A stretch of 64,000 bases of DNA from Lineolata rhizophorae (Eukaryota; Ascomycota; Dothideomycetes; Lineolatales; Lineolataceae), in contig MU001679.1 of NCBI GenBank assembly GCA_010093515.1, forward strand, positions 837,918 through 901,917, read 5' to 3'. This document shows positions 22,001 to 60,972 of this stretch, one piece after another. A model generated the notes under the pieces. That model did not search any database. It was not told the origin of the DNA and saw only the letters and a list, made by a program, of their open reading frames with translations. Both the position numbers and the translations under genes were made by a program. Position 1 is the stretch's first letter, and every line of letters starts with the position of its first letter.

Positions 22001-24119
22001 CCCGAGTCATGTCGCGTGTTCTGAGTATTTCTCCTCTTGTAGTCCGCTTCCAGTCTTTTCCTATCCACTTTTCCCGATGGCAGTGATGGAAGTTCCCTGA
22101 GAATGATCACATCTCCGGGGAGCATGAACGCAGGTAGCCAATCTTTACAGACTTGCATTATGTTTTCCACGGAAAGATCATCATTTTGTGCCAGGCAAAA
22201 GACGACTAGGATGCCGTCGACGACACTAGCCACAGCAAATCGACATCTGTGAGCCTTGCTGGCCACTTGTTCCACCTCGCCCAGCTCTATTCGCTGGCCT
22301 CTGAGTTTCACTTGGCCAGATTGTATGCGACCTAGACATTCCAAAGTCCCATCTAGGAGCATCCTGGCTTTGTCGCCAGTTCGGTACAGAGTACCGAACT
22401 CTTGATGGCCAAATAACACAGCCGCCGTCTGCTCAGGGCGATTGAGATACCCCTTGGAAAGTTGATGGCCACCTACGACCAACTCTCCTACCTGCCCTAC
22501 AGGAAGAACTTCGAAGTCGCTATTTTGAGGACTTTTGTTCGCAGATGGAGGTGCTGCAATAAGGGCGGAAACTGTGTCTAGTGGAATTCCAATGTTTCCT
22601 ACCCGGGAATCTTTGCGAAAACTCGTTTGGAGAGTGCAGTGGATCGCAGCTTCGGTAGGCCCGTACATTCCCCACAAAATGCTCTTTTCATCGTTGTTTC
22701 CTCCAAACTCTTGAACGACAGTTGACGTGAGCATTTCCCCGATTGTCAAGAGTAACCGCAAGCCCGGAACTCGACTTCTCCTTTCCAACAGCGTGCTTGC
22801 CACCGTTGGAGTCAATTCCGCAGCATCGATGTTCAGCTTATTAATTGCGCTGGGGAGATCGGAGAGGAGCTGCTTTCTGTCGCAGGAAACCAGCGTACTT
22901 CCCCTGAACAAAGGGAAGAAAATTTCGAAAACTGAAACATCGAAAGTAGGCGCAGCAAACTGCAGAAAGCGAGAAAATGCAGGAATGTGTCGGTCGTGGG
23001 CCAACAAACTCTGCGTGACCGCTGAATGTTGGATTCCAACTCCTTTGGGCGTGCCTGTCGAACCAGATGTGTACATGACATAGGCAAGATCGCTTGGCCG
23101 CGTAGCCGTATCAAACAGAGCCTTGCTTCGCAGACATGGCGAATTACTTTCGCTATCAATTTCCAAAACCTGAAGACTGTCGACAGGTGGTATTTTGTCT
23201 TTGAGTTCCGATGTCGTGATCACGACACGAGCAGAGACGTCCTGGATAACGAAACGAACGCGTTCTATTGGAGCATCCAAACTGAGAGGACAGAAGGCTG
23301 CTCCAGCCTTCAAGATTGCTATAAGCGCAACGTAAAGCTGTTGAGACTGGGGGACGAGGACTGGAACAACACAGGGACCTCGGACGCCGCTCGACAGGAG
23401 TAATTGTTGTATTTGCGCCGCCCAGTCGTTGGTAAGCTGCTCAAGCATACTATAGGAAAGTGACTGATGCCAACCGGCCAGGTCCGAGTACTCGATCGCA
23501 AGAGATTCCCCGTCCTTAGCTTCAAGTCGGAGGAGCTCATGGAGTAGGCCCGAGCCATCCAGCATGGATGGTTTGGGATTTGCAACGGAGAGCATGAGAT
23601 CGGGATTATTCAGCGATGCCATTGCATTTTCCGGGCTAACTTTGCGTAGAACTGCAGCCTCCAACTGCAGTACTAGCTGAGACATATGGGCCTTGGGGAT
23701 TTTCGAAGACGCCGCCAAGCATCCAGACTTTCGTGATACATCGTAGCAGAGTTCCAAATCCAACAGATGAGCCGGCCGCTAAGCATAGGGTTAGTTTCAA
23801 ACTACGAATCTTTCAAGAAGTATGTACTCACATGTTTGAAGAATATCCCAGTCCCTCTATAATCAGGTGATGCGGAGTTTGTCTTCTCAGTTTCGTTGAA
23901 GTGGGAATTTGCCACATTAACTTCCAGTACGGATTCATCAGAAAGAATTGTGACAAGATCACGGTCACAATAGCCTCCTATGAGCGTCGCAAAAGAAAGT
24001 ACAAGAACCTCCTCTGGAAGGTCAATGCCAATGGAAACCTTGGCTTCTTGACGGGATATATCATTGTGTGAAGCGGGAGAAGCAAGGTTTGGAAATGGTG
24101 TGAGCGTGCGTGCAGCCAT
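7021..24119 (-). CDS. sidC: Ferricrocin/ferrichrome-type nonribosomal peptide synthetase (8 exons)
   Basis: The exons are 24119-23832, 23778-19524, 19468-17343, 17288-17218, 17170-14071, 14017-11986, 11933-7225 and 7161-7021. Phases agree throughout and give 5,573 residues. An upstream in-frame ATG at 24167 would add 16. Domain order by core motifs is A1 (YTSGSTGTPKG, ~residue 331), T1 (Ser722), C1, A2 (~1381), T2 (Ser1792), C2, A3 (~2455), T3 (Ser2847), C3, A4 (YTSGTTGTPKG, ~3518), T4 (Ser3932), C4, T5 (Ser4490), C5, T6 (~Ser5048), C6. The T-C-T-C end is the hallmark of iterative ferrichrome synthetases, which join glycine/serine/alanine and three N5-acyl-N5-hydroxyornithines into a cyclic hexapeptide. 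C3 reads HALYDA instead of HHxxxDG. Neighbouring sidA and an ABC transporter support intracellular siderophore synthesis. The final 63-bp intron has no stop and was placed by family similarity. Confidence 0.93.
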
Positions 24120-25819: not shown

Positions 25820-28800
25820 TTGCAATCTTTGCGGGGCGTCTTTGTGTGCACTTTCAGTATCATGAACGATGAACCAGCCTCCCGAAGGCTCTCGCAGCCT
25901 CGAATCGGCGTGCATCGCTATCCGGAACACAGTTCGATTCATAATACCTCGGCGTCCAATCCGGAAGGGAGGCCGCAGTCGAGAAGGGAGCGACGATGGC
26001 AACCTGAGCTGGATAGCATTTCTTTGAGTGCCCCACGGCCTCGGGCGTGGATTTCCGACATCTCGGATGCTCCCAAACAGCTCTTGCGCCAAATTCTTGG
26101 GATCAATCCTTTCCGGACATCCTACTTCAACCTTTACCGACCGATGAAAAGCACCCAAAGCCGACTTCTACTCCTCGCTGGCATAATATTCGCCATTGCC
26201 GCTGGCGTACCTTTGCCTATAATTGGTGTTGTGTTCGGCGAGATTATCAACCACTTCCCTCCACCTGAAGACGAACTTCGAACGCGACTTACTCAACTCC
26301 TCACAGTCGCGGCGGCGTATTTTGCGGTAACATGGGGCTGGGCGGTATGTTGGGGCACAATCGGGGAACAGATCTCAAGACGCCTCCGAGAGGACCTAGT
26401 TGAACGAGCCTTAGGAATGGAAATCTCTTACTTCGAGGTCGAAGCACCGGATATGTCCACTTTATTGACTGAGAAAATCGAAACAATTCAACTCGGAACT
26501 TCCGAGAAGGTTGGCCTCTTCATCCAATCAGCGAGCTATTTTGTAGCGGCCTTCACAGTAGGTTTTATCCTAAACGCACGACTTACGGGCATTCTCCTCG
26601 CGGCGATTATTCCGACCATGACCTTGGTTGTCGTTTGCGGTACGAGGACCGTCTCTCGACTCTCAAACAAAGTTGCCGACTGCACGGAAAAAGCTGGTGC
26701 GATTGCGGAAAGTGCCATATCTGGTGTCCGGGTTGTCCAGGCATTTGGGATTTCCGATCGGCTTGCCGCTGACCACCTTCGACTGCTGAGATCGGCTGTG
26801 CGTATAGGCGTAAGGAAGTCTATTGCAGGGGGTGTCATGCTCGGCTGCATCTACTTTGTTGCCTACGCCGCCAATGCGTTAGCGTTCTGGCAAGGCTACA
26901 ATATGCAGAAGTCTAGTCCAGAATCCGGGTCCGGTGGAGCTGGCACAGTCTATGCTGTTGTGTTTCTTATTCTAGATGCCTCTTTTGTCGTTGGCCAGTT
27001 TGGACCTTTTATTCAGACCTTTGCACATGCAGCGGCTGCTGGAGAACGAGTCTTTGCACTTCTTGATCATCCCGAGCCTATTATCAATGTGTATTCAGAA
27101 GAAGGAGCCACAGCAAACGAATCGACCTTTTCAAGGGAGATAGTATTCCAAGATGTCACGTTTGTCTACCCGACTCGGCCTTCGGTTCGCGTTTTGGACT
27201 GTCTGAATTTGACTCTAAAGCCAGGAGCGTTGAACGGGTTGGTTGGGTCGTCGGGTTCGGGCAAATCGACAATCGCGGCGCTTCTTCTGCGGTTCTACGA
27301 CCCATCCTCCGGCCGTATTGTTTTGGACGGTCGGGACATCAGAGACTACAATGTTGCGGCATTACGATCTCAAATCGCGTTTGTCGAGCAAGAGCCGACG
27401 CTGTTCAGGGGAACCATTTTCGACAACATTCGTCATGGACTGGGCGAGAACCACGGTCTATCCGACGAGGACGTCATGCAGAGATGCACCTATGCTGCAT
27501 ATGAGGCGAACTGCGATTTTATCGCTGACCTTCCGCAAGGCATTCACTCTCATGTTGGGGACTCCAAAAGTACTTTATCCGGTGGCCAGAAGCAACGGGT
27601 GGCGTTAGCGAGGGCGCTGGTCGGCAACCCCAGACTCCTCATTCTCGACGAGTACACCAGCGCTATGGATGCAAGCTGTGAAGCCTTAGTACTGGAGGCG
27701 CTGAAGCGAGCATCATCAATTTCGGGCCGGACCACTGTGGTCATAGCTCACCGACTAGCAACAGTCAAATCTGCTGACAAGATTATGGTGATGAGGGACG
27801 GCTGTTTGCTCGAGGAGGGAACACATGAGTCCCTCATTGCTGCAAACGGCGCATACAGCTCGCTCGTGGACGCGCAGAAGTTTGAAACATCATCTTCCAG
27901 CTTTCCTGCCACTCCTGCGGAATATTCCTCTGCTTCGGAGCACAAAGTCGTTCTTCCAGCGGAGCAATCATTATCTGATACTCATTTATTATCCAACAAC
28001 ATTGTCACAACTCAAGAGCAGAGGACTCCGGAGAACGATCCGAAACATTCGCATGTTCTTAAACTTGTGGGACGATGTTTTGCTCTGAGTCGCCCACAGG
28101 CGCCCCTCATTGCCGTAGGACTGATTGCCTCGATGATTAGTGGCAGTATCATCATAGGCGAATCCGTTGTGTTCGGGAACCTAGTCGAAGTATTGAACGC
28201 GCAATCATTCAGCAGCGCTCTAGACGAAAGAGCGTACTTCTTTTGTCTCATGTTCTTCGTGTTGGCGCTTATTGCATTATGCGCATATTCGACCAGTGGA
28301 ACAGCATTCGGCATTGTGTCACACAACCTCATTAGTCGTGTTCAGGACATTTCTCTTCGAACGATCCTCGGCCAGGATGTTGCTTGGTTCTCGGAGCCCG
28401 GGCACTCTACTCATAATCTGGTTTCGAAAATAAACACCGACTCCGGGCATCTCAGTGGATTATCCGGTGTTATTATTGGAACGCTTCTGTCTGTGTCTAC
28501 TTCGATTTTTGGCGGAATCATTTTGGCTCATGCTGTTGCATGGAAAATTGCTGTTGTGCTTTTGGCTGCCGTTCCTGTTATGCTTGTCGCTGGTTTCGCG
28601 CGACTACGAGTATTAGCCAAGGCTGAAGAGCGCCACCAAACTGCTTACAATGAGGCAGCAGCGCTGGCTTCTGAGGCATGCTATGCGATTCGCACAGTTG
28701 CTGCTCTTGGACGAGAACCAGATGTCTTGAGGCTCTACAAAGACTCTCTCCGCGAGCCGTACGAAAAGTGCCTGAAGTTTGTCGTCATGAGCAACATTCT

Positions 28801-29922
28801 TCTAGCATTTTCTCTATCAGTTACTTACTTTGTATATGCCCTAGCATATTGGTGGTACGTATTTCCCAAGTCACTTGCTTTACTTAGCCTCACACGTTTA
28901 ATAGGGGTTCACAACAAGTCCGTAATGGTTACCGATCAGAAGTCGATTTTTTCATCGTGCTTCCAGCCCTGCTATTTTCTGCGCAGGCAGCAGGTCAAAT
29001 GTTTAGTTTAGCCCCTGAAGTCACGCAAGCAAAAGCTGCCGCTAGGAGCGTCTTCAGCTTACACGACCAACGACCAACGATAATGCAGTCAGCCTCATCT
29101 GATAGCATTAACTCGAGCGATACGGAGAGCAAGTGCGAGGCCGACGTTAAAACGTCAATAGAATCGTCGCCGGGAATCCAAAGAGGCTGTGTTGACTTTG
29201 TCCAAGTCAGCCTCATCTACGCCCGTCGTGACACGCCAGCCCTCCGCAACACCAGTATTACCATCCAACCCGGCCAACGCGTCGCCTTCGTTGGCCGCTC
29301 CGGTGCTGGGAAATCCACTTGCATCTCTCTCCTCGAGCGATTTTATGACCCTTGCTCCGGCGCCATCCTCATCGACGGTGTCGACATCCGCAAACTTCAC
29401 GTGGGAAAGCACCGCGCCCGCCTCGGTCTCGTGGCCCAAGAGTCCGACCTGTTTCCTGGCTCGGTCGCGTTCAACGTCGGGCTCGGCGCGTCGCCGGGTC
29501 AGATCGTCGACCACGACAAAGTAGTTGAAGCGTGCAAGCGGTGCGGCATCCATGACTTTGTGCTCTCGCTGCCTGAAGGGTATGAGACGGAGTGTGGCCG
29601 TAATGGCTCGCGGTTGTCTGGTGGACAAAGGCAGCGCATTGCACTCGCGCGTGCTTTGGTACGCGATCCAGATATTCTGCTTTTGGACGAAGCAACAAGC
29701 CAGTTAGACGCACATAGCGAGGTGGAGATCCAGAAAGCGATTGAGGAGGCGTCAAAGGGCAGGACTACGGTTGTGGTGGCGCATCGATTGGCTAGTGTAC
29801 AGAAGGCAGACAGAATTTTTGTGTTTGATCGGGGAAGTGTTGTTGAGCAGGGAACTCATGATGAATTAGTAGCTTTGAGGGGGATATATGCGAGTATGGT
29901 GGAGGCCCAAGAACTAGGTTAA
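25820..29922 (+). CDS. Full-size ABC-B (MDR/TAP-type) transporter beside the siderophore synthetase
   Basis: The exons are 25820-28854 and 28905-29922, joined across a 50-bp intron with donor GTACGT. The join restores the family sequence AYWWGSQQVRNGY followed by DFFIVLPALLFSAQAAGQ. The product is about 1,350 residues; a start at the ATG at 25862 (MNDEPASRRLS) would give 1,336. The order is TMD1-NBD1-TMD2-NBD2. NBD1 has Walker A GSSGSGKST (~475), signature LSGGQKQRVALARAL and Walker B LLILDEYTSAMD, with Tyr-Thr where Ala-Thr is usual. NBD2 has GRSGAGKST (~1142), LSGGQRQRIALARAL and LLLDEATSQLD. Both ATPase sites look complete. Relatives sit beside siderophore genes in other fungi, for example SitT-like proteins, so export or compartment transfer of siderophore or its breakdown products is likely. 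The substrate is inferred. Confidence 0.92.
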
Positions 29923-31370: not shown

Positions 31371-32050
31371 CCGAGATTAGATGAAGATCGCAGCATCTAT
31401 TGCAAGGAGGGATTGACGACGCGGGACGCAAGCTCCTCGGCAGGACGCGCGATGCGACGTCCCAAGGCGCGCAGTGAGGCGCATCCTCAGAGCACATAGC
31501 GGGGCCCTGGTACTCCACTCCCCGCCTGCCCAAGTGAACACGTTCGCCCATCATCAGCCCATTGTGCGCTGACACACGCTGCAATCCCTGGCGCTGCTTG
31601 CTGCTTTTGTGTCAGGCCGACGTGCGCCGCCGGCTCGCCCCGGTATGCGGAGTGGGTTAGCGGCTGGTGTCCCGGGCCTGTGTGATTAAAAAGAAGAAGC
31701 TAGGCAAACTAAAAAAGAAAAATTATTCGGAGTTCGCGTGTCTCTCGTGCTAAAGGCTGTGTTCCGCGACTGTACACCGGCCGAGGCGTGCGGATGACAG
31801 CTTTGACAGCTCCTTGCCCGCAATTGCTTCTTTCCAAGCGACAGGGAAGGTCGTGAACAGCTCTGCTCAGCCAGTCAAGTGCGTCATAGGATGCCCTGTA
31901 GTGGTCCAATCGCGTCAGCCGCCGTGGCGCATCATAAATTACACATCTACTGACCAGCATGTGTCTCCAAAACAGTGTCTCATCCCAACTTTTGATCCAG
32001 GAACTGGTGATTGTCCCTCCGAAACGCTTCAATTACACCTAGACGCCATC

Positions 32051-33892
32051 ATGAGCCCTCATGTAGATGACCTCGAGATGCCTAGTGAGGAGTTTAAGGG
32101 CACGAACGGACTTGATGGCATCAGAAACGGGTCCTACAGCGATCATCACGACAATCACACTTTCTACGACGATGCAATGCGTCCCTTATCGGCGACTGCA
32201 GGGGTGAATTCGTACCTCGAGCAAACACACCCGGAGGAGATGCACGACTTGGTTTGTGTTGGGTTTGGGCCTGCCTCCCTTGCGATCGCAGTGGCTCTAC
32301 ACGATTTCTTGGAGCAATCCAAAGCGCCAGCAGAGCTTTCCAGCCTTCGCGGAAGGTCACCGAAAGTCGTGTTTCTTGAGAAACAGAAACAGTTTGCATG
32401 GCATGCGGGCATGCTGCTTCCCGGCGCAAAAATGCAAATAACGTTTCTGAAAGACATGGCTTCTCTAAGGAACCCCCGGAGCGAATTCACTTTCATCAAT
32501 TATCTCTTCAAGCACGACCGCCTTGTCCAGTTCACAAATCTCGACACATTTCTCCCGCAACGTATTGAGTACGAGGACTACATGCGGTGGTGTGCTCAGC
32601 ACTTCGACAATGTGGTCGAGTATGCTCAGGAGGGGCTAGAGGTCCTTCCCGAAAAATCGGACAGGAACAGCGCTCAGATTGACTCGTTTGTAGTCAAGTC
32701 GAGGGACACTGGTACGGGAGAAGTGACTGCCCGACGCGCAAGACATGTAGTCATTGCGGTTGGTGGGCGGCCATCCTTCCCGAAAGCGTTCCCGGCAAAC
32801 CACCCGCGCGTCATTCACTCCTCTCAGTACACTTCTGCGGTCCCCAATGTGTTGAAAGAGACATTATACCCGTATTCTGTAGCGGTTGTTGGAGCTGGCC
32901 AGAGTGCGGCAGAGATCTTCGACACAATTCATTCTCAGTATCCCAATTCGAAAACGCGACTCTTGATAAGGGGCAGTGCATTACGACCCAGCGACGATTC
33001 ACCCTTGTAAGCAACCCCCCCTTGCGAATTATAGATTTCGGAACCTAGGCATTTTAACTCAGACGGAACGTGCTAACTCGGGCTGATTGATCTTATAGTG
33101 TCAATGAAATCTTCAACCCCTCTAGTGTTGACGATGTCTATCATCAATCGCCTGAGCTTCGTGCTACTGCCCTTGCGGCCGATCGTGCAACGAACTACGG
33201 TGTGGTGCGCTTAACTCTTCTGGAGAAGATTTATTCCACTCTGTACACGCAACGCATCCGACTCGGGCCCGAAGAGGAGAAGTGGCCTCACAGAATTCTG
33301 TCGCATCGCAATGTTAACCAAGTAGAGGACTCCCCGGTAATTCCAGGAGGGGTTCGTTTGCATATGTCGAATCGGAGCGGCGATTTCCAGTGCAATGCAT
33401 GCAATGTGGACGACGAAGTACTCGACGTTGACCTTGTGCTCGTCGCATCGGGCTACTCGCGGGATGCCCACGAAGGCCTTCTACGCGGGGCGCAGTGGCT
33501 GAAACCCGCTCACGATGAGGACAAATGGACAGTCCAGAGGAACTACAGGGTGAAATTCACAGAGGGGCGAGTAAGCAATGATGCGGGAGTGTGGTTGCAA
33601 GGTTGCTGCGAGAATACCCATGGAGTGAGTTACAACACATTGCTCGTTACTGATTTCTTTGAATGGCAACACGAGTTTAACTTTGTAATAGCTTAGTGAT
33701 ACCCTCCTTTCCATTCTTGCGACACGGAGCGGAGACCTCGTGCAATCCATGTTCGGGACGGACATTGAACAGATTGGACGTGGCTGCGCTCGAAACGGTG
33801 GTCCCGTTAAAGAGTGTTACGAAAACAGCCACTCAAACGGGCATTCACGATGTGACGATGAGTCATCTGTCGCAAATGGTACGAGTGCGTAA
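32051..33892 (+). CDS. sidA: L-ornithine N5-monooxygenase, first step of hydroxamate siderophore synthesis
   Basis: The exons are 32051-33006, 33099-33624 and 33692-33892, giving 560 residues. The enzyme is a flavin-dependent N-hydroxylase that uses FAD, NADPH and O2 to make N5-hydroxyornithine. Visible motifs are the FAD-binding [18 protein letters not shown] (~residue 67), [17 protein letters not shown], the NADPH-binding [12 protein letters not shown] (~279), the family motif [13 protein letters not shown] (~434), and the C-terminal [15 protein letters not shown] made by the last splice. I chose the start [10 protein letters not shown] because its distance to the FAD motif fits the family. 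An in-frame ATG at 31814 would add 79 unrelated-looking residues. The tail after the catalytic region is Asn/Ser-rich. The gene lies downstream of the ABC transporter in the same orientation, and its promoter shares the GATA motif with the synthetase. Confidence 0.95.
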
Positions 33893-47759: not shown

Positions 47760-49671
47760 ATGGCAGCTTTTGGCAAGCAATCCCTTCCCACCAATAGCAA
47801 CATATCGCGAGACTTCGTGGAGCCGGCGGCTAACTATGGGATGGAGGAACAACCAGACACACCGTGGACCTCTCACATGTCCTCAACTGAACGCTCCGCA
47901 GACGGCGGCTCCTCCCAGTTCGCGTCTGACCCTAACCCACCGACCTACGCCGCTTTCTCCCCCGCAACCCTCGGTCACTATCCTACAGTGAACAAGCAGC
48001 GCTCCACTATCCTCGTGCACCAGAAGTCGCCCTTGCTTGTCGCGACTCCGCCGCAAATCACGCGCGCGCTTGCCTACTCGCATCCCTTCATCCACCCGCT
48101 TAACAAGTTCGTCGGCCTACTGTCATGGACAACGGGCGACCCGTGGGAGAGCTTCCTGCTCGTTGCCGCTTTCTGGGCCGTCACGCTCTACGGTGATGTC
48201 GTCGTGGAATGGGCAGGCCCCGTAGTCGCGGTCATCGGACTCATCTTGGGCATGTACGCGCGACGCTACTCGCCGCTGTCATCGACGGGATGGACAGGGG
48301 AGAAAGGGCAGAAGGGCCATAAGCGAGCTGTGTCGGAAGGGAGCACGCGACATCACAAAAGTCTGGACGAGATCGTGGACACGCTCAAGCTCTTTACGTC
48401 GCGCTGCAACATATTGCTAGACCCGATGCTGCGGCTCACGGACTTCCTCTCGACGCAGCGCACGGCCACGTCGGCGACGACGCGCCCGGCTCTGACCACG
48501 CTATTCATCCGCACTTTGTGCGTCACGCCCATCTGGGTCGCCCTGACCCTCCCGCCGCTCCAAATCATCAATACCAAGCGCGTCGTCCTTACCCTCGGCA
48601 CCATCGTCCTCAGTTGGCACTCGCGCCCCGCGCGCGTCTCGCGTACCATACTCTGGCGCTCCAATACCATCCGCCGCATCTGTGCAACTGTCACAGGCCT
48701 CGATTTTGGGGAGCCAGAGCTCCCGTCGGCCAAGAAGACCGACGGGCCGTCCTTATCTGCGCGCAAGCAGCCCAAGTCTGCAAACGAAATCGCTGCATCC
48801 TTGGCTGCGAAGCGTCGCCCAGAATCGACGGGAATCCGCTTCACGTTCACCCTGTATGAGAACCAGCGACGGTGGCTGGGAATCGGGTGGACGGCATCGA
48901 TGTTGGCGTATGAACGTGCGGCCTGGACGGATGAGCACCTCAATCCGGCGCCTCCCATCGACCGGTTTGAACTGCCGGAGGTAGAAGGTGGACACGCGCG
49001 GTGGCGGTGGGTGGAGGGCAGCGAGTGGAAAATCGAAGGTGCAGAAAAGAGTAGTGGGAGTAATGGATCGAAGAACAATTCGCAGGAGAACGCCGGCTGG
49101 ATCTACTACGATAACAAGGTAGGCCACAATTAATTTCCTCTCGGGAACGTCGGAAGGTCCCTTTGCTCGCGGTGCTGAACAAGAGATTCCCTCACAGTGG
49201 AGAGACGGCCGCCGCGGCCAAGATGGCTGGGGTCGATACACGCGCCGCCGCAAGTGGTACAGAGATGCGGAGCTCGTCGAGGTGACGCCTTCGACTGAGA
49301 TCACCCCATCGCCCACGCCCAACCCCTACGGCGCCAGCCGCAGTGAAACCAACATTTCCGAAGCCGACACCGTCCAGCCGCCCGACGACGGGTCTGGAAG
49401 CGGCTCCGCCCACGGCGCAGACTCCATGTCGATTAAGTCGGACATTACCGACGCAGCCAGCTCGAAGTCTGGCGCGCGAAAGCGACGCTGGTTCCGCCGC
49501 AACAGGCCGCCAAGCGAGATGAGCGCGGCGGGCGGCAGCTCGGGCAGCGTCGATACGGCGGCCACGGCGGCCGATAAGAGCGAGGATACGGATGAGATTC
49601 ACAGCCCAATCAGGCACGAGGAGCGCGATCCGTGGGGTCTGGGTGACGACGCGCGTATGGAACTCGGTTGA
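47760..49671 (+). CDS. Pex24/Pex28-29-type integral peroxisomal membrane protein with dysferlin domain
   Basis: The exons are 47760-49118 and 49198-49671, giving 610 residues. Members of this family sit in the ER/peroxisome membrane and control peroxisome number and size. Hydrophobic segments are FLLVAAFWAVTLYGDVVVEW with VAVIGLILGMYA (~125-165) and a hairpin at about 265-295 (VALTLPPLQII, VVLTLGTIVLSW). The C-terminal DysF region has FTFTLYENQRRWLGIGWT, RFELPEVEGGHARWRWVEGSEWKIEG and, across the intron, AGWIYYDNKWRDGRRG. DysFC ends with DGWGRYTRRRKWYRDAELVE. The tail beyond is acidic and Ser-rich. The first Met was taken; Met28 (MEEQPDTPW) is an alternative. Which yeast peroxin it matches best cannot be settled by eye. 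Confidence 0.88.
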
Positions 49672-49715
49672 GTAAAACAGGGCACGCGACTTGCTCTTCA
49701 CGATTGGATCGGACC

Positions 49716-49743
49716 CTTTTTTCTTTTCTTTTCTTTTCTTTTC
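49716..49743. repeat. (TTTTC)n microsatellite
   Basis: About five TTTTC units lie just after the peroxin stop codon, probably in its 3' untranslated region. Confidence 0.85.
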
Positions 49744-50678
49744 GTCTCTTGTATGGTGTGGCTAGACGTTCGCTCTGGCAGGGTTGGGTGTGTGGGCTTT
49801 GCAAGGTGATAGTGCGGATCCACGGTTAGGCGAATGGAGACTTCCACGCGCGCACACGCACACATGGCGATGGATGGTTCGGCAGCTGCTGGAAAGTCTC
49901 ACTGCAGCTTGTATTGGATGCCTCGTGATTTCTCTCTAAGACCCCTAGACCAACCTGTTAGTGCCTCCGGTAGGATCCCCCGCGGGATCTCCGAGTTTGG
50001 AGATGCCGAGTTGGTGGTCTCATGGGGACTAGATACTAGAAAATAGTCTTTGGAGAGACTCGCGTATAACTCTAATCTAATGTTTTCAGGTAAGAGAACG
50101 AATGCAAGCGCGAGACTTAAGTGTTCCTATTTGCAGAAGCTTCTCTCTTATTATGTACTAGACGGCCTTTTAGCGTAATCCTATTCTCGGCGGATGTAAC
50201 GCTATTTTGAGCGACTAGCAATACGTAATAGCTACTAAAGAATTACTAGGTGTCCTTACTTGGGGGACACGATTAGATTCTTCCCGCAGATCAAGCCCAC
50301 TTCTCATCGCTATGTGATTGCCTATCAGTGCGTTGTCTCTTTTCTACTAAAGCATCCGGGTGGACTTTCGTCTCCGCTGTTTGTTTCACTACACGGCCAC
50401 CTCCCGCGATAAGTGGTTGGCTCGATTCTGCGGTGTCTGGAAGAGGTTAGCATCGACGTAATGCAAATACGCCTACGAAAGAAGCAAGTCGGTTGGCGGA
50501 ACCGAATGTGGGGGTGAAGATCGAGCCAAAACCCCCCGTGTCACCCTCCAAATCCTGCATTATGCTAGGCTAAGACACTACCGCGTGATTGTGGCTTCAA
50601 TGGTAATCTTCCCCGCGGACGCGCGGCAAGCGCGGGCGCCCGCCTCTAAGGAAGGATATCCGTTCTGCAAGGCATAGG

Positions 50679-50687
50679 TATATAAAG
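50679..50687 (+). promoter_or_regulatory. TATA box of the first metallothionein gene
   Basis: TATATAAAG lies 147 bp before the ATG at 50834. A strong TATA box is expected for a sharply inducible gene. The GC-rich segment just upstream may hold metal-response sites, which I cannot name. Confidence 0.6.
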
Positions 50688-50833
50688 ACTGATATCCCGG
50701 GCCAGAAAAGCGAAAAGACCTAGTTTTCTTCAAGGTCCTCATTGTGCCTAAACGTCCAAGCTACCACGTTCCAGGATCCTCAGAAACGACACACTCAGAT
50801 TCCCGAGTCACTTTTTGCCCTTGCATATCCACC

Positions 50834-51280
50834 ATGTCTCCCTGGTAAGTGCAGTTAACCCGGCGTACATGTACATACATATATACGAACACACCCGGCA
50901 TGATCTTGCTATATCGCCCCACTCTCTCCCAGCCTACGTAGATGGGTCCTGGAGTTTTTTCCCGAAACCTATTTACCTCCGCCAACGCTCCGCCCCGTTC
51001 TGGCCTAGTGAGCTGACCAGTGTCCTAATTTAAATGTCCAGTGACTGCGCCTCCTGCTCCTGCTCCGGCGACTGCAACAGCTGCGGCTGCGGCGACTGCT
51101 CCGTACGTCGATGCGTCCCTATCTCCACATAAAACCACTTCATAAAGTGCCTCAATCCTTCTCAACCCTCTTAACCCTTGCAACAATGTTCTCTCGCTGC
51201 TGTCGGGCTGCCCCATTTACAATGCTGGGATCCTTATAACTGTTCTGTCTGCTAATACATTCGGACACCCGTAGCACTAA
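50834..51280 (+). CDS. Metallothionein-like Cys-rich micro-protein 1 (25 residues, 3 exons)
   Basis: The exons are 50834-50844 (11 nt), 51042-51102 (61 nt) and 51275-51280 (CAC TAA). The introns are 197 and 172 bp. Exon 1 gives M-S-P plus TG, and the join to T makes Cys4. Cysteines then fall at 4, 6, 9, 11, 15, 18, 20 and 23, in C-D-C, C-S-C, C-G-C spacing, with no aromatic residue and a C-terminal C-S-H. This is the pattern of fungal copper metallothioneins such as Neurospora CuMT and Magnaporthe MMT1, which bind Cu(I) in the cytosol. Both introns have good ends: GTAAGT/CAG, then GTACGT with branch GCTAAT and TAG. If the second intron is retained, the frame ends at TAA 51130-51132 after the extra tail VRRCVPIST. 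The small size and odd exons explain why it is easily missed. Confidence 0.8.
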
Positions 51281-52127
51281 GTTTGCTCTCCACGAACTGT
51301 CGTCTCCTCGGCCACCGCCATGCCTTTCCTTTTCGGCCTAGAACGCGTAGTGGACAAGTGAAGAGCCGGAAGGAAGAAAAGCCAAGACAATGCGAAGCTG
51401 TTCAAGGATGGCTGCAGCGGGCTGCGTCGGAGACCAGGCGTCTACTGCGAGTCCTTGACCAGCGGCGTGGCTCGTGGGAATTGAGCTAGTTTCTGTTGGC
51501 CAATCAATTTCTCCGACAGCAGTTATCAAATGGGTCAGATAGCTAGGTGGAAATACAACAATCGTTCCTCGAAACAAGTATTTTTGCAGTAGTGAGATTT
51601 GCCTCTGCCATAAGTTCTACGCCCACGCAGTTCCAACGTATGGGTTTTTTTATCGAAAAGTGGTGTTAGCTCTAGCACAATAATTACATAAGCAACTACA
51701 GCATGAGTGCGTCACGACAGAGTTATCATTGGGAGTCAGGGTCGGGTAGGCAAATAGGTGTAGAACTAGGTTACCCAAAAACATGACGTCACATCAGGAG
51801 AATCTCGATAAGAGAAACAAGTATAGTAAGCAGCCTTAAGACTGCAAATTTCTATTTGCTATCCTTGAATGGTATTGCCTTTTTCCCCAAGCTCACTTCA
51901 GCCCCGCATCCACCCACCAAGACAACCTCCTGACACTCTCATACCTCCTCAAATGTGCTCAGTGAAGCCGCTCCATTGTACGAGCTTGTCCATTTGCTGA
52001 AAGGAGTGACCAGCCGAAGTCGAAAGTGTTGCCGTCAAGAGAGTGACGAGAGAATGGAGAGATCATCGAATGTGCTTTGCAGAACTGATGTGTGCAAGGA
52101 CGTAATGTGCAAGGACTGGCCGAAGGT
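51281..52127. other. Spacer between the convergent metallothionein genes
   Basis: About 850 bp of 3' flanking sequence lies between the two micro-genes. No further Cys-rich exon or other gene is visible. Confidence 0.45.
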
Positions 52128-52285
52128 TTACTTCTGCAAATGGAGGTCAGTATAGGTTTACCATCGAACATGAAGAGCTTCCACCAGCAATGTGGAAGCT
52201 CTTAGCATGAGCGTACCGGGCAAGAGCAGCCGTCGCCGCAGGAGCAGGAGTCGCCGCAGGAGCAGGTGTGGTCGTCGCCGAGCAT
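52128..52285 (-). CDS. Metallothionein-like Cys-rich micro-protein 2 (24 residues, 2 exons)
   Basis: The exons are 52285-52217 and 52133-52128 (AAG TAA), with an 82-bp intron at 52135-52216 plus its acceptor base. The protein starts MLGDDHTC. It has six cysteines in three C-S-C pairs (residues 8/10, 14/16, 20/22), separated by G-D-S and G-D-G, and ends P-K. The spacing and Lys end match fungal copper metallothioneins. The donor GTACGC is weak, but the branch-like CTGAC and the TTTGCAG acceptor are good. If the intron is retained, the frame instead ends ...CPVRSC and a TAA, giving 27 residues with a seventh Cys. The two metallothioneins differ in cysteine number and layout, so they are not a recent duplicate. 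It faces the first gene tail-to-tail. Confidence 0.75.
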
Positions 52286-52420
52286 GATGACTGAAGTGTG
52301 TAGTTTGGTTTGTGTGAAGAGTTGTTTCCTTGGCTGTGGGTGTACTGAAGATTCTGTTGCTCTGTTGCCGGATGAGAAGAGAAAAGAGAAAGAGAGACGC
52401 GAGGGCGGGGCAGACGACCG

Positions 52421-52427
52421 CTTTTAT
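52421..52427 (-). promoter_or_regulatory. TATA-like box of the second metallothionein gene
   Basis: On the minus strand ATAAAAG lies about 136 bp upstream of the ATG, almost the same distance as in the first gene. Confidence 0.5.
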
Positions 52428-54216
52428 CTTGCGGCCAGCTGCCCCTCCGCACGTGACGTGGCCTCCCCCTCCCTCCGTCAAGCACGGCGCGCCTCACCAA
52501 CACAACCTCCTAAACCCACAAGGGACTTTTCCACCCGCGACCGTCAGCTCCTCTCTGCATGCTCCACGCGTCTCCAGGTTCGGATGCGGCCGTTCGCCTT
52601 CGCTTCGGCGGCTTCCAGGGGTCGCCGGCCAACCAGCCTCTACCGCCTCTCGCAGTGGAAATAACGTAGCAAGAGGAGGATGCAAAACCCGCCCTGGTCG
52701 CGCGCCCCGTGTGGTGGTGGCGACGCGATGCGCCCCGCGTCGCCCGCAGCCGCTCCACGCCGTTAGGTTCCAGCCCGCGCAAAGGGAAAGTCTCTTCTGA
52801 ATCGGGTCAACCAGAACGTCGGAACCAGGACTCCCAGATAATGGTCAATGGATCGCGGACGACAAATCCATCGAGGGGGAAGCGAGAGCTGGGTTGCTCG
52901 CTCCGCAAACGTAACTCGATCTTCCCCGCCACCACCGCCAACCACCCCTGCGATGTGGTTGCTTGCCGGCTGCCGGCAAACGTAAGACCTTCTCTCGTGA
53001 CAATCGAAGGCCGCTATCGACGCCGCGCTGCTGCAGGTCGCCTCGAGCCGTCCTCCTCCCCGATGCGGCCAGGTCAGCCGGCCCGGACCCAATCAACAGC
53101 CCCGTCACATCGCCGACGAAAGGAGCTTCGAGAAAACCTTGGAGAGCTTAGCGGGCGACCGGGGCCGGCGCTGGAGGGCCGCGGGCTGGAAAGTGCCGGA
53201 TGTGACCAACCACGAGAACCAAAAGCCAAACCGGCCGGGGCGCGGGGCGCCCGCTTTGAGCAGGTTTCGTGGGAGGCGTCCGCCAGGGATCCGGCTCGGG
53301 TCGCGGATGGTGTGGTGTGTGGCCTCCGTTCGTCTCCGCTCCCCACACCAACCACCAAATCGGCCGACGCGCGGTTGGGACGCCGCTCGGAAACAAACTT
53401 CGCGTCTCCCGGCTATCGCTGGGGGCGCGCCCCGTACGGTCGGGACGCATGGCCCTGGCCAACACCTGCGCCAATTGTGCGGAGGCGAGCGGCGCGCCGT
53501 GCGGGCAGGCGGGGAGCTGGTTGCTTTGCTTCGCTCTGCTTTGCCCTGCTTTTGCCCTGCTTTGCTTCGCTTTGCTTGTTCGTCTTCCCCGCCGGCCTAT
53601 CGTCGGACGTCCAATTACGTCCCCAAGCTATCTGCCTGGATCGGACTGGCGTCCTCCATGCTGCGGCACTTGTGCGGAACGCCGGCTCCGCGCCTACCGC
53701 CCGCCGCTACGAGCTTCAGGTCGGCCGCATAATTGCCTTAAACTAAGAGCGCGGGACTCGCCTGTCGTCCCGCATTCGCTTGCTGATCCTCCTTCTGGAG
53801 TCCCTGCTGCGCTCGATGCCGGCGGCGTTGGCATGGGCCCTTCTGGACCGCCGCCTGGCGCGTGAAAACTAGGTGTTTCGGGCCGCTAGTGCGGATTGAA
53901 AGTCAGTGGTAACAAAGGTGATTAGAGCCGTGACGTAATTCCAGGTACGTACTCTGGGAGGCTAACTGGCGTCAGCTTGACAAGATGTTTGGAACGTGGT
54001 ATTGTACCCTGCGGGGAACGTCGCGACAACTTCCTACACCGGGGCGAGTTGCGAGAATAGATGGCATTTGAGGAGTAGACTGTATACTGATTTGTAAAAC
54101 GCCACAAGAGAAATGACGGGGATACATAAGAAGGAGCAGGTGTGTTTCTTCTTTCTCTGAATGTTTTTAGGTCAATACATCGACTATTTCAACTTTCTCA
54201 ATCCCTCTTTGCCATA
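52428..54216. other. GC-rich spacer with long but unconvincing frames
   Basis: From 52690 to 53870 both strands carry open frames of up to 345 codons, rich in Arg, Pro, Ala and Ser and overlapping in several frames. That is expected from GC-rich DNA. None shows a domain. The stretch may hold a noncoding transcript or promoter elements. Confidence 0.4.
53521..53578. repeat. Imperfect CTTTGC-type tandem repeat
   Basis: About nine variants of the hexamer-like unit (CTTTGC, CTTCGC, CTCTGC, CCCTGC) follow one another. This makes a strongly pyrimidine-biased strand within the GC-rich spacer. Confidence 0.75.
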
Positions 54217-55362
54217 ATGACCGACGATTCTACCACCACTGTCCGCGGCTCCTGCCTCTGCCGCCGAACCTCCTTCACCATCCCGCTGCCCACCTCCTAC
54301 GTTCCCCAGGCCAAGCACTTGTGCCATTGCAACGTCTGCCGCCGCACCTCCGGCACACTTTTCACATCCTACTTGACGCTCCCTTCCGACCCTTCGACCA
54401 CACCGCCATCGGGTCTGGACCTCGCTCTTCTGACCCCGTACACCTCCTCGACGCTCACTCGCTACTTCTGCCCTACCTGCGGCACGCACGTCGCCGTGCG
54501 GGGCCACACCGACGGCGCGCTGCTCGTCTGTGCTGGGACGCTGGAACGGACACAGGGCGTGGTGAAGATCGTCGGCCACGAATGGATCGAGGACTCCCGC
54601 GATGGCGGCGGCAGCGTATGGCTGCCTTCTTTGGGGCCCGACCGCGTGCCGGCGGAGCGGTGGCTGCGTGACCCGGGCACGAGTCCGCAAGCGCCGCTAG
54701 AATGGCGCGACTCCGTCGCGGGACCCGGGGCCGCGAGGACGGATGAGCACCTCCCCGAGGACACCCTACCCGCACGATGCCACTGCGGCGGCGTGCAGTT
54801 CCGCATAAAGCGGCCCAGCGAGCGCTCCGCGCGTTCCGCCGCCGCCGCCGCGGCGCCCTTCCCGGACCTCCTCGTGCCGTACCACTCGGGCGCGTCGGCC
54901 GCCAACCCGGACAGCGAAGCCTGGTGGCTGACGGGCCCCGACCTGTCCCGCTTCCTCGCCGGCACCTGCGCGTGTCGCTCCTGCCGCCTGGCGCTCGGGT
55001 TCGATGTCGCGGCGTGGGCGTTCGTGCCGGCCGCGGACATCGTGCTGCCGGACGGGGGCGCCTTTAGGCGGGAGTTCGGCGCTGTGAAGACGTATGGGAG
55101 CTCCGAGGGCGTGACGAGAGGGTTTTGCGGCACGTGTGGGGCGGGCGTGTATTGGAGTGGAGATTGGAGGGAGGAGTTGGTGGATGTGGCGGTGGGGTTG
55201 TTGGATGCGCCGGAGGGGGTCAGGGCGGAGGACTGGTTGGGGTGGGAGAGGGGGAGGGTGAGCTTTGGGGAGGAAGGGAGGGAGAGGGATGTTGTTGAGG
55301 CGTTGGAGAGGGGGTTGGGGGAGGGGAGAGAGGAGGAGAGAGGAGGAGGGAGGGCTAGGTAG
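54217..55362 (+). CDS. Protein with two GFA/CENP-V-type zinc-binding domains
   Basis: This is a single exon of 381 residues. The start MTDDSTTTVRGSC was chosen because the first Cys motif follows directly; an upstream in-frame ATG at 54142 would add 25 hydrophobic residues. The first GFA domain has GSCLCRRTSF, LCHCNVCRRTSG and RYFCPTCGTHV. The second has ARCHCGGVQF, GTCACRSCRLALG and GFCGTCGAGVYWSGD. Both therefore have full sets of zinc-binding cysteines. GFA proteins take their name from glutathione-dependent formaldehyde-activating enzyme, though for most fungal members the reaction is unknown. The C-terminus is low-complexity, Glu/Arg/Gly-rich. The role in this neighbourhood is unknown. 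Confidence 0.88.
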   Translation: MTDDSTTTVRGSCLCRRTSFTIPLPTSYVPQAKHLCHCNVCRRTSGTLFTSYLTLPSDPSTTPPSGLDLALLTPYTSSTLTRYFCPTCGTHVAVRGHTDGALLVCAGTLERTQGVVKIVGHEWIEDSRDGGGSVWLPSLGPDRVPAERWLRDPGTSPQAPLEWRDSVAGPGAARTDEHLPEDTLPARCHCGGVQFRIKRPSERSARSAAAAAAPFPDLLVPYHSGASAANPDSEAWWLTGPDLSRFLAGTCACRSCRLALGFDVAAWAFVPAADIVLPDGGAFRREFGAVKTYGSSEGVTRGFCGTCGAGVYWSGDWREELVDVAVGLLDAPEGVRAEDWLGWERGRVSFGEEGRERDVVEALERGLGEGREEERGGGRAR

Positions 55363-56257: not shown

Positions 56258-58619
56258 ATGGTTGCAGCCGCAGCGAGGCTCTCCAACCCGCATCCGCTAG
56301 ATGACCTCAGCCCTAGCGAAATCTCACAGGTAAGTTAGATCTGCATACTTGTTCCTGCATGCACACATGCATGCATTTGAGCTTGAACTTGCAGGCACCG
56401 TGGCATGTGAAAGCGGAGATCCCAAGAAGATTTGAGAAAACTAACCGCAGTAGGCGGCTGAATACATCCGCGAGGCATACCCAAATGCTCACATCAACTT
56501 CCGAGTCATCACCTTGTCGGAGCCACCCAAGGCGGTGCTTGAGCCGTACTTGCGCACCGAGCGCAGTGGCTTCAAAAGTTCAGCACCAGCTAAACCGGCG
56601 CGGATGGCATACGTGCAGTACTACGTCAATACGCCGCAAGATTTCCGCGAAGTGCACGTAGATTTGGACAAGAGGGAGCTTCTTAATAAAAATGTTCTAA
56701 AAGGAGTGCATTCATTTAGTGTTAGTTCCGATATGGAGAAGATTGAGAAGGCTTGCATAGAGTCTCCCGAGGTCAAGGAAGTGATCGACGAGCTACTATT
56801 GCCTGAAGGGTCTACTGTAGTCGCTGAAACATGGACTTATGCTACAGACGGAGAAAATGATATGAAAAACAAAATTGTAATGGTGGGTGGTAATCTTTGT
56901 TTATCATCCAGGATTTCAATCCCTCGACTAAGGATCTCATCTAGTGCTACATGTATATGCGGCCGGGATCGCACCTGGATACAAACTATTATGCGTATCC
57001 TTTGGACTTCTGTGTGGAAATGTCCGGAGACGGGAAAGTCCTGAACATCATTGCGCTTCCATTGGGGATTGATGGCAAGATGAAACCTGCAAAAGGAAAC
57101 CTAAAACCATTTGACCGGAAAAAAATCCATACGGGAAGCGAATACCACCCAGATATACAGACAGAGAAAAGAACCACCGTTACGCCGTATAATGTTGTTC
57201 AGCCACAGGGGCCCTCGTTCCGAACACAAGGGCAACTTCTAACGTGGGAGAAATGGCGACTGAGGGTTGGCTTCAATTACCGTGAAGGCATGGTCCTGCA
57301 TGACGTTTCTTATGATGGGCGACAGCTCTTCTACAGGCTTTCATTGGCAGAAATGTTTGTGCCTTACGGAGATAGCCGAAGCCCGTATCCCAGAAAGGCA
57401 GCATTCGACCTAGGGAATGACGGAGCTGGAGTGAATGCAAACAATCTGAAACTAGGTGAGTGTGCCTCGCTTGAAGTGGAACTCTGTTCCTAATTGACCC
57501 AATTAGGGTGCGATTGTCTCGGACATATCAAGTACTTCGATGGTTATCATCACACCACTTCAGGGGACCCAATCAAGCTACCCAACGTGATCTGCTGTCA
57601 CGAGCAAGACGACGGCATCTTATGGAAGCACATGAATACTCGGACCAAGAATCCAGTCACGACCCGCTCTCGCGTACTGGTCCTCCAGTCCATCATCACT
57701 GTGACAAATTACGAATATATTTTTGCATTCTACTTAAATCAGGCAGCCGAGATCAGTTATGAAGTTCGTGCAACCGGCATCCTCAGTACGGTTCCAACCG
57801 GTGTAAGTAAAGTTCCGGTCACCCACGAGTCTGACAAGTTACACGATGGCTGACGCACACCACACGGGCTTCGTGCAGCCTAGCAACGCAGCCCAGCCCT
57901 ATGGCACCGTTGTAGCACCTGGTGTCCTCGCACCCTACCACCAGCACCTCTTCTGCCTACGGATCGACACGGCTCTGGACGGACCGAGAAACTCCTTCGC
58001 CACCGAGGAAACATATCCGCTGCCGCTAGGCTGCCCCAGCGGCCGCAATGCTAAAGGCGTCGGCTACACGACGCGTCAGCAATTCGTTGAACACGAAGCC
58101 GCGCTCGACGTCGACATCGGAGCTGGCCGTGTCTTTAAAGTGATCAATGAGGGCGTCACCAACCCAGTCAACGGCGGGCCAGTTGGCTTCAAGATCGTAC
58201 CTCATTACTCACAGATGCTGCTCGCACACCCGACGTCGCACCACGCCGTGAGGTCCGAGTTCGCGGCGCATCCGTTCTGGGTGACACGGTATGCCGACGG
58301 CGAGCGGCATCCAGCCGGTCAGCATACCATGCAGTCGGAGCGCGGCTCCGGCATCGCCACCTGGCTCAGGAATAGGCCCAAGAAGCTGGGCGTGCGTAAC
58401 GAAGACATCGTAGTTTGGCACACGTTCGGTGCGACGCACAATCCGAGAATCGAAGAATGGCCGGTGATGCCTGTTGAGAAGATGATGGTTACACTGAAAC
58501 CGGTAAACTTCTTCAGCAGGAACCCGGCCGTGGATGTTCCGATAAGTAACCAGGAACAAAACCAGAGTGTACTAGTTGAGGATTCTAGAGATGGGCGTTG
58601 CTATAAATCAAAGCTATAG
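56258..58619 (+). CDS. Copper-containing (TPQ) amine oxidase
   Basis: The exons are 56258-56329, 56454-56882, 56945-57455, 57507-57802 and 57879-58619, giving 682 residues. The enzyme oxidises primary amines to aldehydes, releasing ammonia and H2O2. The N-terminal region reads HPLDDLSPSEISQAAEYIRE across the first intron. The catalytic base region is AFDLGNDGAGVNANNLKLG. The cofactor motif VTNYEYIFAFY has Tyr406, the residue that becomes topaquinone. The copper ligands His457 and His459 are in YHQHLFCLRID, and a third His is expected in the C-terminal WHTFGATHNPR region. The tail PVMPVEKMMVTLKPVNFF fits the family. No PTS1-like or signal sequence is obvious. The length is normal. The gene is convergent with the ferric reductase gene. 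Confidence 0.95.
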
Positions 58620-58941
58620 ACATCTTATACTGAATTGTACATCATGTTGAATTTACGTGGAGAATTGCTACCGCACTTTTCCTTCTTCAGGCAGAAAAAT
58701 ACTAGATAAATTGATGAAGATCCTTTTTTTTCCTAAGAGTATTTCTGAGGCATGATGCTTCAAGCAAACATGAAGGTGATGCAAAAATGTGTAAATAGAG
58801 AACACGTAATAATAAAAGGGGAAACCGAACCAAGGGGCTCAAAATGTCTGAGTTCGCACTCATGTCTCCTTGGAAAGGTCTAATACGAGAACACTCCTGG
58901 AACGAAACAAGATACCGAATAAAAAAGCCAAGTGAGGGAAG
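58620..58941. other. Short convergent spacer
   Basis: About 320 bp of 3' flanks between the amine oxidase and the ferric reductase. No gene is seen. Confidence 0.5.
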
Positions 58942-60972
58942 TTAGTAAGTAAAAGCTTCCTCTTCGAAGTCGACCCACCCAAGTGTCACCTTCTTCCTCG
59001 CACAAGCTCTTACCTCATCCGAAAGCGGGCCCGGGCCGCACACCCCCACTACCATAGCCCCATCCCTATCGTGGAAAACGTAATCCATCACCTCGCCGAC
59101 GTTACACCTGCGATTCTCCACCACGATGTTTGCCCTTTCCATCAGCTCCCTCTGGCGTACCGACAGCTGCTGCTCAGTGGCCGTCTCTCCATCGCCACCT
59201 CCTCTCGCGGTTCTTTGCCTAGCAGAAGCGAAAATTCTGACCTTCAGAATGCTAGCACCCATGCCGCCGCCGAGCTGGCAGATTTCTTCGAGCCAATCGG
59301 CAGCCCACTCCAGCGCGGCGAGATCGCGCACCGCCCATGCGAACACGACCTTGCGCGCGCTCGCCGTGCCGCTTAGGCTGCCCTGCACGAGGGCCCGGGC
59401 GTGCGTCAGGTATGCGGTGATGCCGACGCCGCCAGCGAATAGTAGCACTGTGCCGTACGAGTCGAAGCGGACCTGTCCGCCGTAGGGGCTCTCGATGAGG
59501 GCTGTGGCTTTGTAGATTCCACTGGGCTGCGCCGCGGCGAGGTCATAGATGCGCCTGGTGAAGCCCGTGCGGCGGGCGACGAGGAGGGAGAGCGTGTTTG
59601 TGGCGGTACTGCACGCTGAAGTTTGCGAGATGGAGGAGTCCACGCAGGTGGCTTCGGACTTGTTGTCAGAGAGGTGGATGTCTTGGTGAGTCATGGGCAG
59701 ACTTTCAGCTGAGGGCGAGGAGAGCCTTGTTCCGTACCAGGCGACGCTGAATGGGTGCGAGATCAGGTATGAAACGCGTGGGACGTAGATGTGCAAATGA
59801 GCACCTGGACGTGGAGTCCATGGTCGGACGAGGGAAATGGTTACTCGGCTTGTTTCGCCAGGGAGAGCTTCGACAGTAATAGTAGTGAGTTGGCGGTATC
59901 GTATATTGTAGTACACGACACTGATGGCTCGAAGGACGTATTCGAAACCCCAGAGCGCGAAGACCGTATATATGAAAGGCTGCTGGGGTAGAGTGTGGAG
60001 GTTCAGGTGCATGTAGACTGCAACAACTGCGGTGAGGGCAGAGATCCGGTGGATGTTGAGAAAGGTGTCATAGAACGCATGGCGGAGAGGAGACCAAGCT
60101 TGTAGGCCGACGAAGACGAAGACGATTGAGCCAACTAAACCCCACCGATACGATACAGCCCCAGCTATGGCGTCTCCAACACCATCCCAGGAGCCGGCAT
60201 TGTAAGTATTGGCCAGCCAGCATGCGACGTGCATGATAGACTCAAAAATAACAATCCGAGCAACCCAACGATGAAGAAGATTGAACGTATCGTAACTGAC
60301 ACGAAGAAGCCATATCATGGGGTTGTTGCGGAGTGCAAAGAGAATAGTAGGAATTAGGTTCAAAGTAGCCAAGTGTCCGCTTCTGCCACGAAGTGCTGCC
60401 GTTACAGAACTTCGCGACCCATCCCATGGAATCGCAAGACAAAACCCGATGTTGGCGAGGACATATGAAATAATAAGGATGATATGCAGTCGGGAAGGAA
60501 GTGTTCCCAAGCCTACGGCTTTGGATAGTTGGAGCTCTCGGTTGTGGCGATGCTTCCAAAGCGGAGCATAGACAAGGTGCTTCTTTACCATTGACCAGAC
60601 CGGGAACAAGTTCATAGACCAGATTCTCTGGCTCTGGTGAGTGTCGACGGTCGATATTCGACGGAGGAATGCGCCGATCTGTTCGCCAATGCAGACCACG
60701 ACTGTAAAAAAGGCCAGTCCGACAAACATGTATATGAGTATCTTGTCGTAAAAGTAATTCCCAATTTGGTCAACTCCCGTCAGTCCATGCGAGAACCGGA
60801 AAGGGTCTGTAGAGTCTAGGTTTGGTTCTATGTCGTTGAAGTCGGTCTCTGACCGTAGGGACAAGATTGGCGAACTGATAGGCATTGCCATGGTTTGAGG
60901 TGAAGGAGCAGCTCGCGTCGCTCCAATGTGTGTTGACTTTGCGTGATGCGATATTATGAACAGAAGAATCAC
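58942..60972 (-). CDS. Ferric-chelate reductase (FRE/NOX superfamily membrane flavocytochrome)
   Basis: This is a single exon of 676 residues; a start at Met28 (60891, MAMPISSPILS) gives 649. FRE proteins pass electrons from NADPH through FAD and two hemes to extracellular Fe(III) or Cu(II). About six to seven hydrophobic segments are visible. Heme-ligand histidine pairs occur in HRWVARIVIFESIMHV and HAFYDTFLNIHRISALTAVV. The FAD motif is HPFSVAWYG, the NADPH motif is LLFAGGVGITAYLTHARAL, and the terminal nucleotide-binding loop is VGVCGPGPLSDEVRACAR, ending FEEEAFTY, close to the usual aromatic end. A Ser/Thr-rich insert lies in the FAD domain. Only a plain GATAAG (61225-61230) was seen upstream, not the full ATCWGATAA, so iron control is uncertain. 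Confidence 0.9.
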   Translation of the reverse strand: MILLFIISHHAKSTHIGATRAAPSPQTMAMPISSPILSLRSETDFNDIEPNLDSTDPFRFSHGLTGVDQIGNYFYDKILIYMFVGLAFFTVVVCIGEQIGAFLRRISTVDTHQSQRIWSMNLFPVWSMVKKHLVYAPLWKHRHNRELQLSKAVGLGTLPSRLHIILIISYVLANIGFCLAIPWDGSRSSVTAALRGRSGHLATLNLIPTILFALRNNPMIWLLRVSYDTFNLLHRWVARIVIFESIMHVACWLANTYNAGSWDGVGDAIAGAVSYRWGLVGSIVFVFVGLQAWSPLRHAFYDTFLNIHRISALTAVVAVYMHLNLHTLPQQPFIYTVFALWGFEYVLRAISVVYYNIRYRQLTTITVEALPGETSRVTISLVRPWTPRPGAHLHIYVPRVSYLISHPFSVAWYGTRLSSPSAESLPMTHQDIHLSDNKSEATCVDSSISQTSACSTATNTLSLLVARRTGFTRRIYDLAAAQPSGIYKATALIESPYGGQVRFDSYGTVLLFAGGVGITAYLTHARALVQGSLSGTASARKVVFAWAVRDLAALEWAADWLEEICQLGGGMGASILKVRIFASARQRTARGGGDGETATEQQLSVRQRELMERANIVVENRRCNVGEVMDYVFHDRDGAMVVGVCGPGPLSDEVRACARKKVTLGWVDFEEEAFTY

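Follow-up and report, generated by a model that had tools for sequence, protein, structure and literature searches.

Metallothioneins (MTs) are recognised as short proteins in which cysteine makes up 13-35 mol% of the residues (PMC12508003), and fungal members of 22-26 residues, along with MT genes split by small introns, are already known (PMC12508003, PMC4755600), in keeping with the remark in an earlier sequence-only reading of the present locus that fungal copper MTs can be as small as the peptides described below. The copper MTs of family 8 (fungi-I) carry seven cysteines in the order CXC-X5-CXC-X3-CXC-X2-C over 26 residues (PMC4755600), and the Neurospora protein binds six Cu(I) with its seven cysteines (PMC13107397). 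Other described systems include MMT1 of Magnaporthe grisea, of 22 residues (PMC12508003) and located to the cell walls of infection structures (PMC9036806), the MT of Podospora anserina, which ends in Lys as read off printed reverse primers (PMC2654708), and a small MT with eight cysteines from Heliscus lugdunensis (PMC13107397). MT genes can also lie close together or multiply, as in Yarrowia lipolytica, where MT1/MT2 and MT3/MT4 are neighbours (PMC13107397), and in mushrooms, for which MT duplication is described (PMC12508003). The available portions of PMC3532157 and PMC11708227 contain nothing on small ascomycete MT genes, and a search of the gene-pair literature, most subscription papers lying outside it, had no "fungal metallothionein" among the 20 papers listed out of 2,489.

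Here we describe two predicted convergent genes for metallothionein-like peptides in a 64-kb stretch of the Lineolata rhizophorae genome (the window, 64,000 nt in full), with 847 nt between their stop codons (Table 1). In models rebuilt by script, gene 1 (50834-51280, + strand) encodes MSPCDCASCSCSGDCNSCGCGDCSH, 25 residues with 8 cysteines, and gene 2 (52285-52128, - strand) encodes MLGDDHTCSCGDSCSCGDGCSCPK, 24 residues with 6. The rebuilding reproduced to the base the exons of 11, 61 and 6 nt and of 69 and 6 nt proposed by the sequence-only reading, together with its peptide lengths and cysteine counts, and the computed distance between stops agrees with its figure of about 850 bp; its central claim of two split, convergent metallothionein-like micro-genes is supported by the sequence evidence. 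Both peptides are short, cysteine-rich and free of Phe, Tyr and Trp, with three CxC pairs each, as is characteristic of MTs.

Table 1. Features of the metallothionein-like gene pair and of its surroundings, in window coordinates
Feature	Position	Strand	Details
TATA-like box, gene 1	50679..50685	+	TATATAA; 155 nt upstream of ATG, no intervening ATG
Gene 1 exon 1	50834..50844	+	11 nt; M-S-P-C, split after TG
Gene 1 intron 1 (predicted)	50845..51041	+	197 nt; GTAAGT...CAG
Gene 1 exon 2	51042..51102	+	61 nt; Cys core
Gene 1 intron 2 (predicted)	51103..51274	+	172 nt; phase 0; GTACGT; CTAAT 23 nt from end; TAG
Gene 1 exon 3	51275..51280	+	6 nt; CAC TAA = His + stop
TATA-like box, gene 2	52422..52428	-	GATAAAA; 143 nt upstream of ATG, no intervening ATG
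Gene 2 exon 1	52217..52285	-	69 nt
Three tandem repeats, gene 2	52220..52274	-	18-19 nt; encode G-D-x-C-S-C-like units
Gene 2 intron (predicted)	52134..52216	-	83 nt; phase 0; GTACGC; CTGAC 17 nt from end; TTTGCAG
Inverted repeat in gene 2 intron	52173..52203	-	perfect, 12 bp; 7-nt loop
Gene 2 exon 2	52128..52133	-	6 nt; AAG TAA = Lys + stop
Pex24p gene	47760-49133
GFA-domain gene	54142-55362
Copper amine oxidase	56951-57493, 57846-58619	+	matches in ORFs
Ferric reductase	58942-60972	-
NRPS domains, ORF	19354-23763	-	Pfam
Other NRPS-like ORFs	down to 7021		visual inspection only
ABC transporter	25820-29011	+	Pfam
L-ornithine/L-lysine monooxygenase	31814-33010	+	Pfam

Read without splicing, the gene 1 ATG runs into a stop after four codons, and of the eight AG sites between 50886 and 51102 that could close intron 1 only those at 51041 and 51080 leave the frame open; acceptor 51080 loses most of the cysteine core, which is kept whole only with 51041. 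Both introns of gene 1 are long against the norm for such fungi. The predicted peptide (32% Cys, one His) has the layout CXC-X2-CXC-X3-C-X2-CXC-X2-C, in which six of the eight cysteines lie within the three CxC pairs and two are single, so that the earlier description of all cysteines as paired holds for gene 2 (6 of 6) and fails for gene 1. We take the closest known peptide to be Neclu_MT1, a 24-residue MT of Cd/Zn type, induced by cadmium, from Heliscus (Neonectria) lugdunensis, a fungus of aquatic habitats. Aligned without gaps to the presumed sequence of the Heliscus peptide, for which a literature search returned no match, gene 1 is identical at 15 of 24 positions, all 8 cysteines among them, and differs at the other 9; the two would have in common their cysteine spacing, an SPC start and a CSH end. 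For this presumed sequence, the score was reached by 9 of 20,000 shuffles that kept cysteines fixed and by none of 20,000 full shuffles. The comparison also speaks to the exon structure, because gene 1 has its SPC start only with the 11-nt exon 1 and its final His only with the 6-nt exon 3. The count of eight cysteines is that of the small Heliscus MT (PMC13107397). Heliscus lugdunensis is a sordariomycete, whereas the host of gene 1 is a dothideomycete, and we know of this kind of peptide only from an aquatic sordariomycete. Because of this probable resemblance, gene 1 is a candidate of Cd/Zn rather than copper type and, judged by its eight cysteines and C-terminal His, most likely a peptide of the Heliscus kind, in which the terminal His would perhaps assist Cd/Zn binding.

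The gene 2 peptide (25% Cys, one His) is built of three G-D-x-C-S-C-like units, the first of them longer (GDDHTCSC), which give the layout CXC-X3-CXC-X3-CXC; in the underlying DNA repeats, spaced 18 nt apart, identity to the first copy is 84% for the second and 74% for the third. No named counterpart of this peptide was found. MMT1 has six cysteines, as does gene 2, and by analogy with known MTs gene 2 would most likely be a short CxC peptide binding Cu(I). The two peptides thus differ in both CXC spacing and cysteine count (8 vs 6), as had been stated earlier. They resemble MMT1 in size and the family 8 MTs of Neurospora crassa and Agaricus bisporus in length and CxC motifs but depart from the family 8 pattern, gene 1 having 8 cysteines in another order and gene 2 having 6 (PMC4755600 and PMC12508003). 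The earlier comparison of the pair with copper MTs is not supported in that form, as gene 1 appears to resemble a Cd/Zn MT and neither peptide shows the seven-cysteine Neurospora/Agaricus pattern.

Cysteine richness does not by itself set the pair apart. We used as background 200 kb in 20 stretches of the same genome, in which a rule of at least 6 Cys and 3 CxC per 24 stop-free residues picked out 4 places. By this rule the window yields a single place, gene 2, and order-3 Markov DNA one in 30 x 64 kb; gene 1 escapes because an intron splits its first CxC. Under a rule of 6 Cys per 21 residues counted from a Cys, 24 places qualify in the 200 kb and 5 in the window; gene 1 is one of these five, and gene 2 drops out, its open frame stopping 20 residues past the first Cys. 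The window is unenriched for cysteine clusters, and cysteine richness alone is therefore not significant. Better evidence comes from the promoter and leader, the terminal intron and the codon bias. A TATA-like box 60-200 nt upstream with an ATG-free leader is found at 31 of 5417 background ATGs and at the ATGs of both genes (the distance of about 140 bp given earlier fits gene 2, at 143 nt, and falls short for gene 1, at 155 nt), and of the 1427 donor-like sites in the 200 kb, 12 could open an intron that leaves a single codon plus stop, figures that serve as guides and not as p-values because the splice models were picked for good fit. Both gene models have such an intron, in phase 0, with a GTACG(T/C) donor, a CTRAY element 17-23 nt from the end and a YAG acceptor. 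Among the exon codons of the two genes 42 of 49 end in C and none in A; C-ending codons make up 28-40% in six further ORFs of the window, Pex24p through NRPS.

We therefore consider it very probable that genes 1 and 2 are two real, separately transcribed small cytosolic metallothionein genes of a filamentous ascomycete. Each transcript would start shortly past its TATA box and carry an ATG-free leader, and splicing would leave the last codon and the stop alone in a final 6-nt exon. Both peptides, which have no hydrophobic segment, would stay in the cytosol, where, by analogy with the Neurospora MT, the Cys thiolates of each would enclose metal ions in one cluster. The opposite reading, that these are low-complexity open stretches rich in TGC, TCC, GGC and GAC that chance has placed near splice-like signals, could draw on the background frequency of similar clusters, about one per 8 to 50 kb depending on the rule (24 and 4 per 200 kb). 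Against it stand the scarcity of such clusters in the Markov DNA, the concordance of leader, codon bias and terminal intron in both genes, and the residue make-up of gene 1: gene 1 lacks a CC doublet, and 86% of the residues between its cysteines are small or polar, whereas none of the 24 background clusters combines that lack with a share of 80% or more, by a cut chosen after the rows were seen. We regard chance as extremely unlikely. Nor do we see much in the proposal that the two are decayed or silent former metallothionein duplicates, now unexpressed; it accords with the finding that each gene matches only itself in the genome, with no paralog elsewhere (one candidate scored for each), and is made highly improbable by frames, splice sites, promoter-like boxes and a strong codon bias that are intact in both.

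A different question is whether the terminal introns of otherwise real MT genes are kept, in which case gene 2 would be an intronless 27-residue peptide with 7 Cys ending in -CSCPVRSC and gene 1 would end in -CSVRRCVPIST. Both readings stop early and remain short, both begin V-R-x-C and so add one cysteine at the same place, a Cys at the fourth codon being uncommon past donor-like sites (57 of 1456 in the background), and the 7 Cys in 27 residues of gene 2 come near the 7 in 26 given for family 8 (PMC4755600). The C-ending bias nevertheless breaks off exactly at the predicted donors: 5 of the 13 codons of the kept readings end in A (Fisher p 0.0002), or 3 of 11 when the donor codon is left out (p 0.005). 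Good donors, branch-like sites and acceptors give one codon plus stop in both genes, the His end of spliced gene 1 fits the presumed end of the Heliscus MT, and spliced gene 2 shares its terminal Lys with the P. anserina MT (PMC2654708). Constitutive retention thus appears unlikely to us, and we think it very unlikely that the introns act as switches, retention adding a V-R-x-C tail to yield 7-Cys gene 2 and 9-Cys gene 1 forms. Were that so, the hairpin in the gene 2 intron could set the balance and each gene could yield two peptides of different metal capacity. This hairpin, located downstream of the donor and upstream of the branch-like site (52146-52150), is the only 12-bp stem in the window, which has three more of 10 bp; the 200-kb background holds 1 place with a stem of at least 12 bp and 4 with at least 10 bp. 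For the intron as a whole, the folding energy is -25.7 kcal/mol (z -3.2), a value equalled in 2 of 200 shuffles. The hairpin may bring donor and branch-like site together or govern intron retention, or it may be due to chance.

The origin of the pair is less easily read. The last intron lies in an identical place and phase in both genes with a common GTACG donor, and this shared position, as predicted from sequence, would favour common descent, as would the V-R-x-C with which both kept readings open; a last intron at such a position might equally be common among small MT genes generally. The score between the two proteins was reached by 17% of 2000 shuffles and that between their introns by 35% of 500, both within the shuffle range, and similarity therefore does not support a common origin. 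An inverted similarity of the two cysteine cores was considered as a sign of duplication and rejected, as shared codons can produce it. The pair may plausibly have arisen by inverted duplication. The arrangement had been called unusual, a view against which the neighbouring MT genes of Yarrowia lipolytica (PMC13107397) and the MT duplication of mushrooms (PMC12508003) speak. Two MT genes lie close together in Yarrowia as here, but the Yarrowia MTs are longer, highly alike and marked by a CCC motif, whereas genes 1 and 2 differ in cysteine layout.

Database searches added little to the assignment. In Pfam, gene 1 has no family and gene 2 only a CXCXC repeat under the cut-off (E 0.74); NCBIfam had no family above cut-off for either peptide; a sequence search of the PDB returned a single match, to gene 2 (E 0.69), and nothing for gene 1; and Rfam at gathering score over 49200-54200 returned nothing naming the peptides. 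A protein database that includes dothideomycete proteins offered no candidate for the 40-residue frame holding gene 2, in a search that needs three 5-residue words in common and has little power for so short a frame. A loose CxC pattern matched the whole genome 936 times forward and 1108 times in reverse (338 and 346 for a reversed-pattern control); the matches listed all lie on contig C1, and many are TGC/TGT repeats. Five of the listed regions were inspected, of which three hold a cysteine cluster in a frame that is longer or has no start ATG, and none is convincing. Two cysteine clusters were noted in passing, CSCANKCCSGLGCDGCKQNPK in the background (L024, 9932, + strand), metallothionein-like and rich in small and polar residues, and CSCSRCGCLCCDC (L031, about 868, + strand), lying early in a 98-residue stop-to-stop frame with no upstream ATG. 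We searched the 800 nt upstream of each gene for metal-response motifs (Ace1-like, CuRE, MRE, STRE and GATA). Neither stretch contains an Ace1-like or CuRE site; genes 1 and 2 have 2 and 3 GATA-like sites (background 1.46 per 800 bp), 0 and 1 MRE-like (0.92) and 0 and 5 STRE-like (1.58), respectively.

The surroundings are those of a dothideomycete genome in at least one gene, the best named relative of the Pex24p neighbour (47760-49133) being from Glonium stellatum, a dothideomycete by taxonomy (78% identity over 91% of the query). At roughly 4.5-8.5 kb from the promoter of gene 2 are the copper amine oxidase and the ferric reductase (56951-60972), a neighbourhood that is either metal-related or a coincidence. 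Farther away, the window contains a siderophore-like cluster (7021-33696). A search of the 31-Mb assembly for 5.8S rRNA had no match at E 0.001 (39 of 869 candidates scored), and the rDNA may therefore be missing from the assembly.

Overall, genes 1 and 2 look like real and fairly ordinary metallothioneins whose tiny last exons make them easily overlooked. If the models are right, they would add two members to the sparsely sampled small metallothioneins of ascomycetes, gene 1 being the apparent dothideomycete counterpart of the aquatic-sordariomycete peptide. Short-gene filters are likely to discard genes of this kind; a common last intron that precedes the stop by one codon would serve as a simple structural marker in finding more. 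Finally, with two neighbouring genes that differ in cysteine layout, metal preference could be compared directly within one cell.
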